Virus record (IMG/VR): IMGVR_UViG_3300032032_000484
Coordinates: 1 to 55,311 of that record
DNA length: 55,311 nt
From: a virus
Direction: 5' to 3' (one strand)
In this document: positions 36,331-44,817 of the stretch, in pieces
How positions within the stretch are numbered: position 1 is the stretch's first letter
Layout of the letters: every line of letters begins with the position of its first letter
Position numbers and translations under genes: made by a program
The notes under the pieces: model-generated
The model's input: the letters and a program-made list of their open reading frames with translations, nothing else
What the model was told of the DNA's origin: nothing
Databases searched by the model: none

Positions 36331-36684
36331 ATGGCAGATGACATATTTGACTTTGGTTTTACAGCAGTAGACGAACCTGATACACAGGCTTCTGCTCCTG
36401 CGCAACCAACTGTAGACTCAGACGCAATCTTAGATAAACTAGCACAACTAGAAGCTAAGGTATTGAACGCAGATAACTCTGGAATGGTTAATGAACACAG
36501 GGCATTAATAGAATCAGATGTATCTAGCAAACTTCGTGATGTAGAGGATCTTGTCCTCCCTTTACTTTACAATTTGCAAAAAAATCCTGAAAAGGAATAT
36601 ATTCATTGGCCAAATAGAACGGCTATTATTGACAAACAAATTGAAAAGATAAAGGCGGTAACAAGATACTATGAGCGAGTCTAA
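36331..36684 (+). CDS. Conserved hypothetical protein of T4-like marine phages
   Basis: 117 residues. It begins MADDIFDFGFTAVDEP, continues with a Gln/Pro/Ala linker and a helical C-terminal half, and ends with PLLYNLQKNPEKEYIHWPNRT, then IIDKQIEKIKAVTRYYERV. The 'L..NP.K.YI.WPnR...I' block is a pattern I associate with hypothetical proteins of this phage group; no function known. The hydrophobic N-terminal IFDFGF could be a protein-docking peptide. SD AAAGGAGAAACAG. Overlaps the ClpP-like gene by 14 nt. Confidence 0.65.
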   Translation: MADDIFDFGFTAVDEPDTQASAPAQPTVDSDAILDKLAQLEAKVLNADNSGMVNEHRALIESDVSSKLRDVEDLVLPLLYNLQKNPEKEYIHWPNRTAIIDKQIEKIKAVTRYYERV

Positions 36685-37282
36685 CGGATTAAATAAAAAC
36701 CAATTACAAAACGCATACCAAAGACCAGTAGCTAACATCTATGACTTGTACCTTACAGGTGCAATAGGAGATGCCAAAGACTATCAAGATTGGAATCAAA
36801 TGATGAGATCAGCTACGGAAAATGATGTTGTTTACATACACATTAATTCTAATGGCGGTGAGATATTTACAGCTATACAATTAATGAGAACAATGCAGGA
36901 GACACAAGCAACAGTCATAGCTTCTGTGGAAGGTATGTGCATGTCAGCAGCCACATTACTATTCCTAACAGCAGATGTATGTGAAGTCTCAGAACATAGT
37001 CATTTTATGTTCCATACATACAGTTCAGGTAATTGGGGTAAGGGTAGTGAACAATTAGCCAATGTAATGGCAGATGATAAGTGGGCACGACATTTATTCA
37101 ATACAGTTTATAAAGGATTTTTAGATCCTAAAGAGATGGAGTCAATGATTGATGGTAAAGATTTATGGATGAATCCTGCAGAAGTAGGCAAAAGACTAGA
37201 AAAAAGAAACAACCTGGCTAAGAAAGCTAGAGGACCAAAAAAGAAACAAAAAGCTTTACTTTCACCTACAAAGGCTTCATAA
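36671..37282 (+). CDS. clpP: ClpP-like serine protease
   Basis: 203 residues, the size of ClpP. Oxyanion loop and N-terminal strand VVYIHINSNGGEIFTAIQLM, catalytic Ser in EGMCMSAATLL (S92), catalytic His in HFMFHTYSSG (H115), and the later helix FLDPKEMESMIDGKDLWMNPAEVGKRL (in part). The third residue of the triad is less certain. The C-terminus is Lys-rich (KKARGPKKKQKALL). No ClpX/A is visible, so it would need a host or elsewhere-encoded unfoldase, or act in prohead maturation or host takeover. Confidence 0.85.
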   Translation: MSESNGLNKNQLQNAYQRPVANIYDLYLTGAIGDAKDYQDWNQMMRSATENDVVYIHINSNGGEIFTAIQLMRTMQETQATVIASVEGMCMSAATLLFLTADVCEVSEHSHFMFHTYSSGNWGKGSEQLANVMADDKWARHLFNTVYKGFLDPKEMESMIDGKDLWMNPAEVGKRLEKRNNLAKKARGPKKKQKALLSPTKAS

Positions 37283-37305: not shown

Positions 37306-37749
37306 ATGATGAGAGAATTAAAAATATTTTTTACGGCAATGTTTATATTTGCTTTACTAGCAGCTTGGGCACCAAGAGCTAACGCAGCAGATACATCAGA
37401 TGTAATTGGAGCACTTTTATTTGGAGGTTGGTTAGGTAGTGAAATACAAAAAGACAGACGACCTATTGAACCTTATGTAACACATTTTCCTCATGGAACA
37501 ATCATTGTTCCTGGATTCAAACAAAGAACAAACATGCAATGCTTTTTTGAAATAGAAGCAGATGGCATGCCCAAGTATGCTGTACCTAACTGTTCTACTA
37601 CTGGTAGCAGTTATTATAACAGACACACTAACACAAAAATCCTGCAACAGGATATGTATCCTTGTGGTAGTTATTGGGGATATGGTTGTCAGTACTTAGT
37701 TCAAAAGCTAAAAGCTGGAACCATTACAGGGGTATTTAATTTTAATTAA
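37306..37749 (+). CDS. Exported protein with signal peptide, unknown
   Basis: 147 residues. Signal peptide: RELKIFFTAMFIFALLAAWA, then PRANA|AD, a Sec/SPI-type site near residue 27. The mature part is about 120 residues with Cys pairs (MQCFFEIEADGMPKYAVPNCS, YPCGSYWGYGCQYL) fit for periplasmic disulfides, and a Gly-rich GALLFGGWLGSEI helix. It lies 8 nt before the TonB-dependent receptor gene and has its own SD (TAGGAGAAACT). It is probably periplasmic or outer-membrane associated and may partner the receptor. Confidence 0.7.
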   Translation: MMRELKIFFTAMFIFALLAAWAPRANAADTSDVIGALLFGGWLGSEIQKDRRPIEPYVTHFPHGTIIVPGFKQRTNMQCFFEIEADGMPKYAVPNCSTTGSSYYNRHTNTKILQQDMYPCGSYWGYGCQYLVQKLKAGTITGVFNFN

Positions 37750-37757
37750 GGAGTAAG

Positions 37758-39305
37758 ATGAAACACTTAAATGTGAAAGCCCTACTATTAGTAGGACTAT
37801 TTTTCGTTATGACACCAGTAAAGGCGTCAGATGTAGAAGAAGTGATAGTGATCGGAGCTAATATAGCTCAAGGTTATTCTCAGCCAGAGTATGATGGCTC
37901 TGTAATAGAAGCATTAGATCCCACAAGAGTCTTTCAGCCAGGAGGCGTAGGCGGATTTGTAGGAGCAACAACACATGGAACAGATGTAAAACATACAGCT
38001 GTATATAGGAACGGAATTCCTGTTAACGACCCTGGCTCAGGGTGGTATGACTTTGGAACAGAAGTGCCTACATTCCAAACATTTAAAACAATCTCAGGAC
38101 CTAATAGTACTTTGTATGGTAGTTCTTCAATGGCAGGAACAATACTTATGGAAGATACTTTTGATGGCAATAACTTTTTTACTAAAGGAGGAGACGGATT
38201 ATTCTTTGTACAAGGTGGAACAGACTGGTTTCACATATCTAGATACAAAGGTTCCAACGGCTCTGTAAAAACAGATAACAACGAAGAAGATTGGTTTGAG
38301 AATGTAACACTTAAAACAAAAACAGAACTTGGTAATTGGAAAATAATTAATGTCCTACAGGATTACAAATATGATTATGATTCCTGTTACGACAGCAGTT
38401 GGTCTAAGATAGATACATGTACACAAGAAGGCACTAAGACAGATATTTCAGTAAGAAATGATTGGCTTACTGCTGGTTATAGTATGAATGATGTAACACA
38501 TAACACAGGCTGGTCTGCTAAAAGTGAACGCTATTTTGTAGATGCTAATAAAGAAGTATTACCTGGTTTAATTCTAGGAGCACAGAACAATCAAGAAAAA
38601 TATAATGATAAGTGGGATAATAGAACAGGTGTCTATGCCAACTACAATTTAAATGAATTTGGTTTTGGATATAGATTTGAGGAAAACGAACACATTTATA
38701 GAGTAGGTTATACTACACAAGGATTTAATCTATCCCTGGCAAATAGTTTTAGAAAGCCAAACTTATATGAAAGATATGGTGACGACTGGACATTTGCTAA
38801 TCCTAATCTAAAACCTGAGAAAGGAAAAGGTGTTGAAGCATCTTATGGAGATGTTACAGCATGGTACTACGAATTTTCTGAAGGTATTGATTATAGTTAC
38901 ATGACATCTAGCTATGTGAATGTTGGTTCATACGATAGCAAGGGCATTAAATATAGTAATCATATTCTAACAGACAAAGGAGCCTTCCATGTGTTCGTAC
39001 AATACACAGATTCAGACAGAATTAGAGTACCCAAATATAAAACAAAACTATCCTGGTATGGTGGTTCTGTATATGGATTTGACTACATGTTATCTTATGT
39101 AGGACAATTTGAAAAAGGATTAGAGTTTGATGGCAGACCTATTGATGATGTGTCTACATTCAACTTTAATATGGGATATTATCTAACACCCAGATACCGC
39201 GTAGGACTCCAAATTACTGACATTTTAGACAGAAATTTTGAGATTTTACCCGATTATTCAGCAGGTGGAAGGACAATTTCCTTGTCCTTAGACCTAAGTC
39301 TTTGA
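37758..39305 (+). CDS. TonB-dependent outer-membrane receptor (BtuB-like)
   Basis: 515 residues, short for the family (BtuB 614). Signal peptide NVKALLLVGLFFVMTPVKA|SD. Next EEVIVIGANI is a TonB-box-like segment, then a plug domain: VYRNGIPVNDPGSGWYDFGTE, then KTISGPNSTLYGSSSMAGTIL at about 112-132, as in BtuB-type plugs. The rest alternates aromatic beta strands (barrel) with LANSFRKPNLYERYGDDWTFA and NPNLKPEKG, the conserved TBDR block, and the C-terminus GGRTISLSLDLSL. Two Cys at about 209/219 may pair in a loop. It should sit in the host outer membrane and take up a TonB-dependent ligand or block phage adsorption. Confidence 0.85.
   Translation: MKHLNVKALLLVGLFFVMTPVKASDVEEVIVIGANIAQGYSQPEYDGSVIEALDPTRVFQPGGVGGFVGATTHGTDVKHTAVYRNGIPVNDPGSGWYDFGTEVPTFQTFKTISGPNSTLYGSSSMAGTILMEDTFDGNNFFTKGGDGLFFVQGGTDWFHISRYKGSNGSVKTDNNEEDWFENVTLKTKTELGNWKIINVLQDYKYDYDSCYDSSWSKIDTCTQEGTKTDISVRNDWLTAGYSMNDVTHNTGWSAKSERYFVDANKEVLPGLILGAQNNQEKYNDKWDNRTGVYANYNLNEFGFGYRFEENEHIYRVGYTTQGFNLSLANSFRKPNLYERYGDDWTFANPNLKPEKGKGVEASYGDVTAWYYEFSEGIDYSYMTSSYVNVGSYDSKGIKYSNHILTDKGAFHVFVQYTDSDRIRVPKYKTKLSWYGGSVYGFDYMLSYVGQFEKGLEFDGRPIDDVSTFNFNMGYYLTPRYRVGLQITDILDRNFEILPDYSAGGRTISLSLDLSL
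39269..39289 (+). repeat. Hairpin in the 3' end of the receptor gene
   Basis: Perfect 8-bp inverted repeat AAGGACAA / TTGTCCTT with loop TTTCC, inside the last codons of the receptor gene and 58 nt before the -35 of P3. There is no T run. Confidence 0.6.
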
Positions 39306-39346
39306 TCTAACAGGAGAAAAGACTTCAAAAGATTAGCATAAAGTGC

Positions 39347-39375
39347 TTGACTCTTGGTTCTTAAGAGTGCATAAT
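39347..39375 (+). promoter_or_regulatory. Sigma70-like promoter P3 (VWA gene)
   Basis: TTGACT at 39347-39352, 17 nt, CATAAT at 39370-39375. The spacer dyad is ACTCTT (39350-39355) / AAGAGT (39363-39368). About 80 bp around it, from CTTCAAAAGA to the SD GTGAGGACTT, is nearly the same as around P4 at 42114. Confidence 0.85.
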
Positions 39376-39415: not shown

Positions 39416-41968
39416 ATGCCAAATCAAATAGAAGTAAAATCAATATTAGCCAAGTTATTAGCTACTGAAGACATCAGTGTTGAGCATGATGCGAAAGCAC
39501 CAACAGCAGCATTTGATGTTAAAAACAGAAAGCTATATCTTCCAATGTGGAAGGACATGTCTAATGATATGTACGATCTATTTGTTGGACATGAAGTAGG
39601 ACATGCACACGAAACTCCAGAAGAAGGATGGCATGATACAGTTATTGATAACCCTTCACTTAAAGGCTTTCTTAACATTATAGAAGACGCTAGAATTGAG
39701 CGTAAAGTAAAAGAAAGATATCCTGGACTTGTTAAGTCATTCCACAAAGGCTACCAAGAATTATTCGACAAAGACTTTTTTGGTGTTAAGGATAGAGACT
39801 TAACCAAACTTCCATTTGTAGATAGAGTAAATCTTCATTTTAAAATTGGACACTTACTTGGTCTTAAATTTACAGAAACAGAACAGAACTTCCTAGACAG
39901 AGTTGCAAAGACTGAAACATGGGAAGATGTAGAGTTACTTGCTAATGAACTAGCAGACATTTCCAAACAAGAAGCTGAGGACAGACAAGACGAACTAGAA
40001 CCACTTCAACAGATGTTAGATGATTTAATGTCAGAAATGAATGATGCTCAAGAACAACAACCTTCATGGGACGACTATCAACCAGCTCACCAGAAAGAAG
40101 AAGAGTCAGAAGATGGCGAGGGTGAAGGCGAAGGCGAAGGTGAGGAAGACGATACTAAAGATGAATGGGGTAACCCTAAGCCAGGTACTCCAGGCGGTTC
40201 ACAAGGCGAAGACGAGACAGAAGAAGAGTACTTAAAAAGAAACGAGAAAGAATGGGAAGCAGAACAACTAAAACGCCAAGAAGAAAGAGCTCGTAGACAA
40301 AAAGAATGGGAAGCAGAACAAAAAGCTGAAGAACTTTTTGCCAAAGACAAACAAGAAAACAAAAAGAAACAAGAAGAGCTTAAAGAAGCTATTGAAGAAG
40401 TTGAAAAGATGCATGGCTTCCTAGACAACGAAGGCCAAAAATCAATTACAGATGAGGAGTTTAGAAGAAACGAATCAGAACTTGTTGATGTAGACGCTAA
40501 ACCAATCCAATACATTAGCCCTCAGAAAATGTTCAAGTCTAAAGACTGGATTGTTTCAATGGACGAACTATATGATTGGGAAAAATCAATTGAATTATCA
40601 GAAGTTACAAAGACTAGCGATGAATATTATGGTTATGACGATAAAGAAGTTCCTAACTCAGAACTTAAAGGCATAGCTTCTAAGTTATATCAAGAGTTTC
40701 TTAAGGACACAGCTCCAGTAATAGCATCCATGGCTCAACAGTTTGAACTTAAAAAAGCAGCAGCTGCTAACAAGAAGGCTAGAGAAGCTAAGTCAGGTGA
40801 TCTTAATGAGGACAAGCTTTGGGCTTACAAATTGACTGAGGATTTATTCCAAAAGAATATGATTGTTCCTAACGGTAAGAATCATGGTATCATAATGTAT
40901 GTTGATTTATCAGGTAGCATGCACAGACAAATGGAAGGTACTCTAGAACAGATGATGAATATGGCAATGTTCTGCAGAAAAGTTAACATTCCATTTGATG
41001 TATATGGTTTCTCAAACAATCGTCCATATGATTATGATACTAGAGAGTCTACTAGTCCTTGGAGTGAGAATAGAGACATGAACAAAAAGGCAATGCAGAA
41101 TGTAGAAGACGGCGAAATCCTAATGACGGATGAGAATTTTGCACTTGTTCATATGTTAAGCTCAACATGTAAGAAAACAGATTTCATCAACGCAATGTCA
41201 TACTTATTACTTATGAAAATAGGTTATGGTAGAGGTAGATATTACTCAGATGTTTATAATAATGATAACCCTTACCATGGAAATATCAGTAACGAATACT
41301 TTAGACTAGGAGGCACACCTCTTAATTCAGCAGTAATACTAGCAACTGAAGTGGCTAAGACTTTCCAAAAGAAATACAATGTAGAATTACTTACTACAAT
41401 ATTCTTAACAGACGGTGGTGCTACAGACGGTGTTACATACAGAAAAGCAGAAAGAGACTCTGAGGACAGAGTAGGAACTGATAGTGTATACTCAGATCAG
41501 ATTGCTATTAAAGACGGTCCAATAGTAACTAGACTTCCACAGAAAGATGGTTACTCCAGAAGAGATAATGTTACTACACAGACACTCTTAGAACATTACA
41601 AAAGAGTTACTGGCTCTACACTAATCAACTTCCACATTGTTGACGGTAAAAGAGATGCCTTCCACTCAGAACATCAAGCAGATGTTTGGATGGATGAAGG
41701 TAAAGAAGCAGATTACTATATGTCCAGCGATTGGATTGAGAATGTATGGAAAGATGTACTTGCCAAGAAGTTTGCAGTTACTACTCCTAAATTTGGATAC
41801 GACGCTAGGTTCCTTCTTAAAGGCAGAGATGATCTTAAGATTGAGAACAAAGAGTTAACTGTTAAGTCTAATAAGAAAGGAGACTTACTTAGAGGTTTCA
41901 GAAACTTCAACAAAGGCAAGAAGACTTCCAGAACATTCCTTAACCAAATCATCGATATGGTAGCTTAG
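39416..41968 (+). CDS. Metalloprotease-motif and VWA-domain protein (CobT-like)
   Basis: 850 residues in three parts. The N-terminus carries a zinc-protease signature DLFVGHEVGHAHE (H59, E60, H63) and IIEDARIERKVKERYPG, where the Glu-Asp is a probable third ligand. The middle (about 195-330) is a highly acidic, Glu/Lys coiled coil. The C-terminus (about 490-720) is a von Willebrand A domain with MIDAS IIMYVDLSGSMHRQ and a TDGGATDG loop. The overall plan (VWA with acidic linker) is that of CobT or the VWA partners of MoxR/CobS ATPases, and a CobS-like ATPase gene follows. Peptidase activity is likely but unproven. Confidence 0.75.
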   Translation: MPNQIEVKSILAKLLATEDISVEHDAKAPTAAFDVKNRKLYLPMWKDMSNDMYDLFVGHEVGHAHETPEEGWHDTVIDNPSLKGFLNIIEDARIERKVKERYPGLVKSFHKGYQELFDKDFFGVKDRDLTKLPFVDRVNLHFKIGHLLGLKFTETEQNFLDRVAKTETWEDVELLANELADISKQEAEDRQDELEPLQQMLDDLMSEMNDAQEQQPSWDDYQPAHQKEEESEDGEGEGEGEGEEDDTKDEWGNPKPGTPGGSQGEDETEEEYLKRNEKEWEAEQLKRQEERARRQKEWEAEQKAEELFAKDKQENKKKQEELKEAIEEVEKMHGFLDNEGQKSITDEEFRRNESELVDVDAKPIQYISPQKMFKSKDWIVSMDELYDWEKSIELSEVTKTSDEYYGYDDKEVPNSELKGIASKLYQEFLKDTAPVIASMAQQFELKKAAAANKKAREAKSGDLNEDKLWAYKLTEDLFQKNMIVPNGKNHGIIMYVDLSGSMHRQMEGTLEQMMNMAMFCRKVNIPFDVYGFSNNRPYDYDTRESTSPWSENRDMNKKAMQNVEDGEILMTDENFALVHMLSSTCKKTDFINAMSYLLLMKIGYGRGRYYSDVYNNDNPYHGNISNEYFRLGGTPLNSAVILATEVAKTFQKKYNVELLTTIFLTDGGATDGVTYRKAERDSEDRVGTDSVYSDQIAIKDGPIVTRLPQKDGYSRRDNVTTQTLLEHYKRVTGSTLINFHIVDGKRDAFHSEHQADVWMDEGKEADYYMSSDWIENVWKDVLAKKFAVTTPKFGYDARFLLKGRDDLKIENKELTVKSNKKGDLLRGFRNFNKGKKTSRTFLNQIIDMVA

Positions 41969-42142: not shown

Positions 42143-42179
42143 ACATGTATATTAAATAATAAAAGTGAGGACTTATATA

Positions 42180-43367
42180 ATGAAAGCAATAGATAGAGAA
42201 AACTTAATCCAGACCCTACAGTCACAGGACAACGGTACTGGAGTTTTTACCCGTAAACAAATCATCGAAACAGCTAGCTCAATAGGCTTAGGTTTCCCAG
42301 CATGGTTGGTGAACGGCAAGCCAGAAGTCAAAGTTGACAGAGGCGTTTATAATTTAACCAGTATGTTTGGTGGACAGGTTGCTCAGGCACAGCCCATTGA
42401 ACAGGCTCAACAAGCACCTTTAGCAGTGGTTGAAACCCAAGCTCCACAGGTGTTGGTACAAGCTAAATTAGCTGTAGAAGTAGACGATCTTATCCCAGGA
42501 AAAGATGCTACTTTTGTACCATTTGGATTTTACAAGGACTTGAAAACAGTTCTTAGCACTAGCATGTTCTACCCAATATTCATTTCAGGCTTATCAGGTA
42601 ATGGTAAGACTACAATGGTTGAACAAGTATGTGCAAACCTAAAGCGTGAGGCTATTAGAGTAAATATTAGTATTGAAACTGATGAGGATGATTTAATCGG
42701 TGGCAATACACTAGTTGACGGTAATGTCGTCTATAGAGAAGGGCCCGTCCTCACCGCGATGAAGCGGGGCGCTGTTCTCATACTTGATGAAGTGGATAGG
42801 GGTTCGAACAAGCTGATGTGCTTACAAGCCATCCTTGAGGGGAAGCCTTACTTCAACAAGAAGACTGGCGAAACCGTAACTCCTGCTCCTGGATTTAACT
42901 TAGTGGCCACGGCCAATACTAAGGGTCGAGGTTCAGATGATGGCAAATTTATTTCTGCCAACATACTCGACGAGGCATTCCTTGAAAGGTTTGCAATCAC
43001 AGTCGAGCAGGAGTACCCTACAATGGCTACCGAGAAGAAGATTATTGTTAAGAAGATGGAAAAGGTCAACAATGTAGACCAAGACTTCGCGACACACCTT
43101 GTTACTTGGAGTGATGTTATTCGTAAAACATATTACGAAGGTGCCATCGACGAACTTATTTCAACTCGTAGGTTGGAGCACATTGTTAACGCTTTTGCAG
43201 TGTTCAAGGACAAGCAAAAGGCTGTTCAACTTTGTGTTAATAGGTTCGACGAAGACACAAAAGAGGCATTCATTGATTTGTATGCCAAGGTTGATCCAAC
43301 TGTTGAATTAGAACAGCAGATGGAAGAAAATGCAGAACAGGAGATACATGAAGATGGCGAAGAATAA
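42180..43367 (+). CDS. cobS: CobS/MoxR-like AAA+ ATPase
   Basis: 395 residues from ATG 42180, which has GTGAGG 8-13 nt upstream. N-terminal helical domain and a Gln/Ala-rich linker (about 65-95). Walker A SGLSGNGKTTMVEQV near 137, Walker B GAVLILDEVDRGSN near 200, sensor-1 NLVATANTKGRG, and an Arg-finger region FLERFAITVEQEYPT. Marine T4-like phages commonly carry this gene, annotated as CobS of aerobic cobaltochelatase. Together with the VWA protein upstream, under matching promoters, it probably forms an AAA-VWA machine. Whether it inserts cobalt or remodels a protein is not settled by sequence. Confidence 0.85.
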   Translation: MKAIDRENLIQTLQSQDNGTGVFTRKQIIETASSIGLGFPAWLVNGKPEVKVDRGVYNLTSMFGGQVAQAQPIEQAQQAPLAVVETQAPQVLVQAKLAVEVDDLIPGKDATFVPFGFYKDLKTVLSTSMFYPIFISGLSGNGKTTMVEQVCANLKREAIRVNISIETDEDDLIGGNTLVDGNVVYREGPVLTAMKRGAVLILDEVDRGSNKLMCLQAILEGKPYFNKKTGETVTPAPGFNLVATANTKGRGSDDGKFISANILDEAFLERFAITVEQEYPTMATEKKIIVKKMEKVNNVDQDFATHLVTWSDVIRKTYYEGAIDELISTRRLEHIVNAFAVFKDKQKAVQLCVNRFDEDTKEAFIDLYAKVDPTVELEQQMEENAEQEIHEDGEE

Positions 43368-44055: not shown

Positions 44056-44817
44056 ATGAATTTTGGTGAAAGAATAAATTACGAGCTTGACAATCATGTC
44101 GCCGTTTTAACAGTAAACGGAGTAGGTCCTCTCAATATAATCGACATACCGTTTTACAACGGATACAACGATGCTCTAGTAGAATTTAGAGAAGATGATT
44201 CTAGAGTTTTACTTATCAAGTCAGGCAATCCAGATCACTTTACAGCAGGTTTTGAAGTAGACACAATCATTGAAGGCATGAAGTCAGGCGCTGCTGGTAA
44301 TACAATTACAGACAATGATATGGTTACACCTAAACCTATTATATCAGCAATCAAAGGTTTTTGTATTGGAGAAGGTGTAGGTTTGATGTTGGCAAGTGAT
44401 TTTGTATTTGCAGATTCTAATCTAAAAATTGCCTGTCCAGAAACAAAACTAGGATTTAATGCTGTTACAATGCAGGTTAAATTCACTCAAAGAATTGGAC
44501 ACAATAGAACAATGGAATTTATGATGGGAGACATGCACGATGTTCATTGGTTAGATAGAGTAGGATTATGTACAAAGATATGTGATGGAGATGCTGAAGA
44601 ACAAGCACTAGCATATGCACATAAAATTGCCAATAACAATGCACCTATTGCAGTCAGAGGAACAAAAGGTGCCATATGGCATACAGTAAACTCTCATAAG
44701 GACGAAGCCATAGACTTTGCTTTGTGGGCTAAGGACATGACATTAGACTCTAAAGATATACAAGAAGGTGTGGCAGCTTTCCTAGAAAAAAGAGCACCTG
44801 AATTTAAAAATGAATAA
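44056..44817 (+). CDS. Crotonase (enoyl-CoA hydratase/isomerase) family protein
   Basis: 253 residues, the normal size for the family. NYELDNHVAVLTVNGVGPLNI, the oxyanion-hole strand GNPDHFTAGFEVDTI (near 58) and GFCIGEGVGLMLASDFVFADS (near 104) follow the crotonase fold; CPETKLGFNAVTMQ holds the second catalytic Glu position (E164 in rat). The first Glu (E144, GGGCEL in the rat enzyme) is replaced by Gly here (GEGVGL). It may thus be an isomerase, hydrolase or decarboxylase rather than a hydratase, or non-catalytic. It sits behind a late promoter. A bacterial metabolic gene is unusual at this point of a phage genome. Confidence 0.85.
   Translation: MNFGERINYELDNHVAVLTVNGVGPLNIIDIPFYNGYNDALVEFREDDSRVLLIKSGNPDHFTAGFEVDTIIEGMKSGAAGNTITDNDMVTPKPIISAIKGFCIGEGVGLMLASDFVFADSNLKIACPETKLGFNAVTMQVKFTQRIGHNRTMEFMMGDMHDVHWLDRVGLCTKICDGDAEEQALAYAHKIANNNAPIAVRGTKGAIWHTVNSHKDEAIDFALWAKDMTLDSKDIQEGVAAFLEKRAPEFKNE

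Follow-up and report, generated by a model that had tools for sequence, protein, structure and literature searches.

The 55,311-nucleotide viral DNA analysed here (the window; IMG/VR record IMGVR_UViG_3300032032_000484, positions 1 to 55,311) encodes a 515 aa protein that is almost certainly a TonB-dependent receptor (TBDR). Its closest relative by sequence profile and predicted fold is BtuB, the cobalamin receptor. Among marine T4-like phages, the gene is fixed in a clade, and other genome slots are also occupied. We consider it fairly probable, from sequence and structural modelling, that the protein serves as a phage cobalamin (corrinoid) receptor powered by host TonB. TBDRs are known as phage entry doors; here a virus lineage acquired and kept one.

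The receptor and its affinity to BtuB

The open reading frame is complete (37,758–39,305, + strand) and follows the preceding stop codon after an 8 nt gap, with a ribosome-binding site (AAGGAG) of Shine-Dalgarno type at its start. The GC content shows no shift at the gene. A signal peptide (aa 1–24, MKHLNVKALLLVGLFFVMTPVKAS; 37,758–37,829), read from the sequence, is directly followed by the TonB box EEVIVIG (aa 27–33; 37,836–37,856). A hydrophobic N-terminus ahead of the TonB box was found in 28 of 28 family members, as was a TonB box of the EE-x-x-V/I-x-G type. The plug comprises a shortened N-terminal, force-labile part of 43 residues (aa 34–76; 37,857–37,985) and a C-terminal part (aa 77–135; 37,986–38,162) with the stretches KH, PVND--GW-DFGT and GPNS--GSSSMAG. 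The Pfam Plug domain (PF07715) was detected in the window protein above the gathering cut-off (E = 4e-5) and is present in all 21 of the family members compared.

The original prediction, made from the letters of the DNA, had described a complete TBDR plan, and every motif it quoted was found: the TonB box at residues 27–33, GPNSTLYGSSSMAG at 114–127, RKPNLYERYG at 332–341 and NPNLKPEKG at 348–356. The C-terminal strand was also identified, the protein ending in SLDLSL. Structure prediction had been suggested as a check on the plan. An AlphaFold2 model using 21 relatives (mean pLDDT 70) has 22 beta-strands over residues 139–513 and is confident for most of the barrel (about 80–90) but mostly below 60 in the plug, which remained low-confidence and no better in a second run with 25 sequences. 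Modelled loops are long after odd strands (up to 21 residues), and turns of 2–4 residues follow even strands. This arrangement, which puts the long loops on one face and the short turns on the opposite one, is the topology of a TBDR barrel. All parts of the plan are there, with a slight departure from the standard layout, a short N-terminal half of the plug. Each of 28 members has 43 residues separating the TonB box from the position of BtuB residue 73, compared with 60 in Escherichia coli BtuB. In BtuB, this N-terminal half is a mechanically weak subdomain, and the channel opens when TonB pulls it out (PMC5413942). The segment in the phage family is a shortened version of this subdomain, possibly one that opens more easily. 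Such a naturally shortened plug is material for studying TonB gating.

Several comparisons point to BtuB. The NCBIfam BtuB model (TIGR01779) matches 16 of 21 members, and models of any other TBDR type match at most four. When the family profile was searched against the PDB, BtuB was the best match (E = 4.5e-18), and the next distinct protein, also a B12 transporter, followed at 1e-4. The profile alignment to BtuB is full-length (488 columns, probability 98%). Foldseek matches of the receptor model are TBDRs, led by BtuB (E about 1e-15 to 2e-15, TM about 0.70, 19% identity). BLASTP against E. coli BtuB gave 5e-13 in the C-terminal barrel (27% identity over 213 aa) and 2e-7 in the plug. In a set of 72,556 plasmid records, 12 places match, seven of which are annotated btuB and one murI, the gene beside btuB; no gene is listed at the remaining four, three of which are E. 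coli records sharing the same alignment. The plasmid set should contain many other TBDRs, yet only these 12 places match. Overall, however, sequence identity with BtuB amounts to only about 25%, and all members score far below the cut-offs of the BtuB equivalog models (for the window protein, 40 and 52 bits versus 600 and 836 for TIGR01779 and NF007926, respectively).

The calcium ligands of BtuB, D179, D193, D195, D230 and D241, are all aspartates in the BtuB sequence. D193, D195 and D230 align with phage residues D173 (usual), D178 (invariant) and D208 (invariant), D241 aligns with D, N or E, and D179 is without a match. Three of the five cage positions are thus aligned to conserved acidic residues, one to D/N/E and one to none. 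In BtuB, the five aspartates cage two calcium ions beside the cobalamin site, and calcium raises the affinity for cobalamin about 1000-fold (PMC7360065). The phage counterparts lie in the region of extracellular loops L2 (aa 165–179) and L3 (aa 208–220), which with the intervening strands spans 38,250–38,420 (+ strand); here, TDN-E-D and YD-C motifs align with the calcium-ligand aspartates. Residues C210 and C221 are invariant among members. The KH and PVND--GW-DFGT stretches of the plug map by alignment to cobalamin-contact positions, and the BtuB contacts N72 and D95 (listed in PMC7360065) align with D76 and D98, which are at least 90% conserved. Mean pairwise identity among 25 members is highest in two apical plug stretches (0.79–0.83), followed by extracellular loops (0.56), strands (0.44) and periplasmic turns (0.25); conservation of the C-terminal plug is 0.70. 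Conserved surface loops fit a conserved small ligand, unlike a diversifying decoy. The SB2-like sequence GW-DFGT is unlike that of BtuB, so the ligand may differ.

Phage origin, genomic setting and spread

The window derives from a T4-like myovirus and encodes portal, major head and sheath proteins, a helicase, DNA polymerase and gp46. A misassembly with host DNA would have undone the original prediction. This is ruled out by two contigs from other metagenomes, which repeat the locus and both junctions at 99.95–99.99% identity over 13.5 kb. Diverged relatives (43–74% identity) retain the same neighbors, and GC is flat across the gene.

The receptor family occurs in at least 41 IMG/VR contigs, at identities of 37% to 100%. 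Viral scans gave 31 of these and then six more, and a scan with the neighboring CobT added four; some are the same phage sampled twice. A scan of prokaryote genomes (84,980 species) returned 143 pattern matches, none of which was confirmed as a receptor relative, and a bacterial donor was therefore not accepted. No relative was found among 50,697 phage records at E ≤ 1e-5. Two records in that collection, AFYI01000005.1 and AGRM01000004.1, are named Salmonella and carry btuB beside 16S rRNA; they look like pieces of bacterial chromosome. The earlier statement that phages rarely carry TBDRs agrees with the search of phage records and with the single, SusC-like TBDR found among viral predicted structures. 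Selection on the receptor is purifying: dN/dS is 0.11–0.39 for the closest pairs (mostly <0.26), with a median of 0.30 and a largest value of 0.58 for all pairs with dS of 0.1–1.5.

Marine bacteria are very rich in TBDRs. Their abundance (PMC3400609) would favor a chimeric contig of host and phage DNA, or a passenger gene in decay, as the source of the reading frame. Given conserved synteny, intact frames and purifying selection across at least 41 contigs, and no confirmed bacterial relative among the 84,980 species, this explanation is refuted for practical purposes.

In the window, the receptor occupies a slot (slot A) bounded on the left by a ClpP-like protease (36,671–37,282, + strand; CLP_protease 1.7e-10, phrog_1827 8e-63) and on the right by a CobT-like protein (39,416–41,968, + strand; phrog_459 4e-173). 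A CobS-like AAA+ ATPase follows (42,165–43,367, + strand; phrog_249 1e-109, AAA_5 7e-17). Between the protease and the receptor is a gene for a small secreted partner of 147 aa (37,306–37,749, + strand) with a signal peptide, a glycine-rich segment (DTSDVIGALLFGGWLGS) and four cysteines. The 8 nt gap makes it likely that partner and receptor are co-transcribed. Many slot-A members have the partner 1–23 nt ahead of the receptor; others lack it, as do slots B and C. Its absence in several members means that it is not essential; a modulating role is possible. Its signal peptide ends ANA-AD, with no cysteine and hence no lipobox, so it is not a lipoprotein of the Llp/Cor kind. In one receptor-less relative, the interval between the ClpP-like gene and cobT holds other genes, including one for a small exported protein (L112, 4,572–4,928) that resembles the partner in its glycine-rich segment and also has a His-rich stretch.

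Behind the receptor, a palindromic sigma-70-like promoter element, CTTGACTCTT-N7-AAGAGTGCATAAT (39,333–39,375, + strand), starts the cobT unit. Five copies were located on the + strand of the window (20,230, 25,271, 39,346, 42,113 and 52,747) versus none in 100 shuffles, and copies precede cobT, cobS and DNA polymerase, among others. Possibly this palindromic-spacer promoter represents a class of regulated phage promoters. Also present in the window are adjacent SET-domain genes (PF00856; 35,023–35,385 and 35,382–35,735) that look like a tandem duplication (60 nt at 78% DNA identity), and a member of the enoyl-CoA hydratase/isomerase family (44,056–44,817; 1.8e-29) that is kept in several relatives and missing in others.

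Among 80 CobT loci, those with CobT at least 48% identical to that of the window have the receptor adjoining cobT in nine of nine cases (all with readable flanks, one cut at the contig end), whereas the receptor is absent beside cobT in loci with CobT less than 40% identical. Twelve larger receptor-less T4-like contigs have no copy anywhere, in a search without a positive control of its own. One locus (L104) is an empty site, with 110 bp between the ClpP-like gene and cobT. In slot B (L014–L017) the receptor lies just upstream of the gp47/gp46 pair, and in slot C (L021–L025, L030–L032) it is some 44 kb from cobT. Slot B nests within slot A in the receptor tree (98/100), and slot C groups with three slot-A members (100/98). 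By contrast, gp46 of slots B and C is 59–60% identical to that of the window, versus 74% for those three slot-A members. The receptor gene has thus probably moved between phage lineages.

Proposed function and alternatives

Three relatives have, 11 nt downstream of the receptor, a gene for a radical-SAM protein (3e-15 to 4e-16) whose N-terminus carries a B12-binding domain (PF02310; 4e-6 to 2e-5), the latter scoring 25–27 bits versus a cut-off of 32. These genes (L018 5,377–6,840, L044 9,557–11,005 and L047 9,506–10,954) belong to a phage radical-SAM family, most members of which have a B12-binding domain and which occurs several times per genome; further members are at L183 8,839–10,407, L184 11,676–13,292 and L187 2,902–4,473. 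Further B12-binding radical-SAM genes are encoded by a 170 kb relative (G001) and by the phage of the window itself, on a contig of 83.6 kb. For most of the radical-SAM proteins, the PF02310 score falls short of the curated cut-off, and PDB searches with these proteins gave no match. PF02310 was found in four of six receptor-bearing contigs of at least 80 kb versus none of eight T4-like contigs in the same size range without the receptor (Fisher p = 0.015); the contigs share descent, so this is an association and not independent evidence.

The phage ribonucleotide reductase is of class I (NrdA and NrdB) and not B12-dependent, which rules it out as a corrinoid consumer. Scans of the window and of two contigs detected no cobalamin riboswitch. 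The 170 kb relative has a glutamine riboswitch (RF01739; L181 9,717–9,781, − strand), as reported for Melnitz-like phages, and a pair of neighboring genes whose large exported products are rich in Asn/Thr and in Glu, respectively (L177 5,222–9,126, − strand). CobN (PF02514) was not found in 10 contigs, several being partial genomes. Since CobN was not found there, phages without the TBDR retain CobT, and the other two slots (B and C) lie elsewhere, adjacency to CobS and CobT says little, and we do not take it as proof of B12 metabolism.

TonB_C and ExbB domains were not identified in seven phage contigs, although control genomes gave matches; thus, host TonB must drive the receptor. Candidatus Pelagibacter ubique has no TonB-dependent transporter (PMC3400609), whereas SAR86 (PMC11582366) and the OM43 host of phage Melnitz (PMC9004378) carry btuB. 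We therefore infer that a TonB-bearing host is more likely than SAR11. Among isolates, Melnitz phages are closest at gp46 (47%). An exact 35-nt core of tRNA-Thr in a sister contig matches only Acidobacteria MAGs, which was not accepted as a host signal.

In the model that we propose, a phage-specific descendant of the BtuB type would be made from the phage genome during infection, be exported via the Sec pathway by virtue of its signal peptide and fold into the outer membrane of the host. The plug apex and loops L2 and L3 would bind cobalamin or a related corrinoid, aided by the acidic, probably calcium-binding cluster. The host TonB-ExbB-ExbD complex would then pull the TonB box and release the corrinoid to the periplasm, and the extra corrinoid may feed the B12-binding radical-SAM enzymes of the phage, host methionine synthase, or both. 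We infer expression, localization, transport, substrate and consuming enzyme as parts of this model.

The original prediction had offered two functions, a rise in nutrient uptake during infection and the replacement or masking of the receptor, which would exclude rivals. Nutrient uptake is favored here, narrowed to cobalamin-type compounds. A TonB-dependent transporter that uses a BtuB-like scaffold for another scarce ligand (siderophore, heme or metal chelate) seems unlikely. It would account for the identity of about 25% to BtuB, for the family-specific sequence of the most conserved plug loop (GW-DFGT) and for the few members that weakly match heme or siderophore receptor models; distant relatives of the partner (L112 4,572–4,928 and L064 3,122–3,484) also have His-rich, possibly metal-binding stretches. 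However, BtuB ranks first in every comparison, most calcium-ligand positions have acidic counterparts, and the pairing with B12-binding radical-SAM genes is operon-like.

BtuB and FhuA are classic phage receptors. An exclusion device at the surface of the infected cell would act as a decoy, or would replace, titrate or block a TBDR of the host that rival phages use. Phage T5 blocks its TBDR receptor via a small exported lipoprotein, Llp (PMC9586334), and a small exported protein is encoded beside the receptor in several members; by analogy to the jamming of FhuA by Llp, the secreted partner could possibly regulate the receptor. A decoy should diversify, yet the extracellular loops and ligand face, including the plug apex, are more conserved than the strands. 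The TonB box is kept in 28 of 28 members, the partner is without a lipobox and not always present, and three relatives pair the receptor with a radical-SAM gene. Masking or exclusion thus fits worse than uptake, and we regard it as improbable.

The wider proposal, that a virus-evolved, shortened cobalamin receptor feeds viral cobalamin-dependent radical-SAM enzymes in a module for vitamin acquisition and use, is tentative and somewhat short of probable. If true, the core genes fixed in a phage clade would include a virus-encoded outer-membrane vitamin transporter. Seawater contains little cobalamin, which many marine bacteria are unable to make, so a viral receptor for it would directly alter who gets the vitamin during infection. 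The cobalamin reading, if true, would also be a concrete case of a phage putting a nutrient importer into the outer membrane of its host.

Comparison with known systems

The phage protein shares with E. coli BtuB (PDB 1NQE, 1NQH, 2GSK) the signal peptide, TonB box, plug and predicted 22-strand barrel, and by alignment it has counterparts at most calcium-ligand positions and several cobalamin-contact positions. In contrast to BtuB, it is about 100 residues shorter, its N-terminal plug segment is shorter by 17 residues in 28 of 28 members, two invariant cysteines lie in and next to L3, and the SB2-like loop (GW-DFGT) differs. In the present searches, the family was seen solely in phages.

Related T4-like marine phages carry other outer-membrane channel genes, as pelagimyophages and Melnitz encode a curli CsgG/CsgF operon (PMC7029224, PMC9004378). 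This is a secretion channel, unrelated to the receptor in fold and function. The unnamed phrog_5687 (760 positions), longer than the phage receptor, weakly matches plug and barrel stretches of 17 of 25 family members, with no match for the window protein itself.

We found no phage BtuB-like receptor family in the literature searched, a search without most subscription journals and all preprints; previously, marine phage TBDRs are single annotations (Mar_Mega_1, Skadi). In pelagiphage Skadi, a gene among those for tail and capsid is annotated as a TonB-dependent receptor, which its authors took as a hint to the adsorption receptor (PMC10504331). It shares this annotation in a marine phage, but no homologue of the window protein was found in the phage collection. 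The megaphage Mar_Mega_1 and LR745206 encode putative SusC-like TBDRs for which uptake during infection was proposed (PMC9723777). The SusC family gave no match for the 515 aa window protein beyond a weak match in fold, and the sole TBDR among viral predicted structures, the SusC-like BFVD A0A8D9FQQ5 (805 aa), is similar at the fold level only (13% identity). Thus, a TBDR encoded by a marine phage is common to both systems, but those of Mar_Mega_1 and LR745206 are isolated cases of the SusC type, whereas the BtuB-like receptor is a clade-wide gene.
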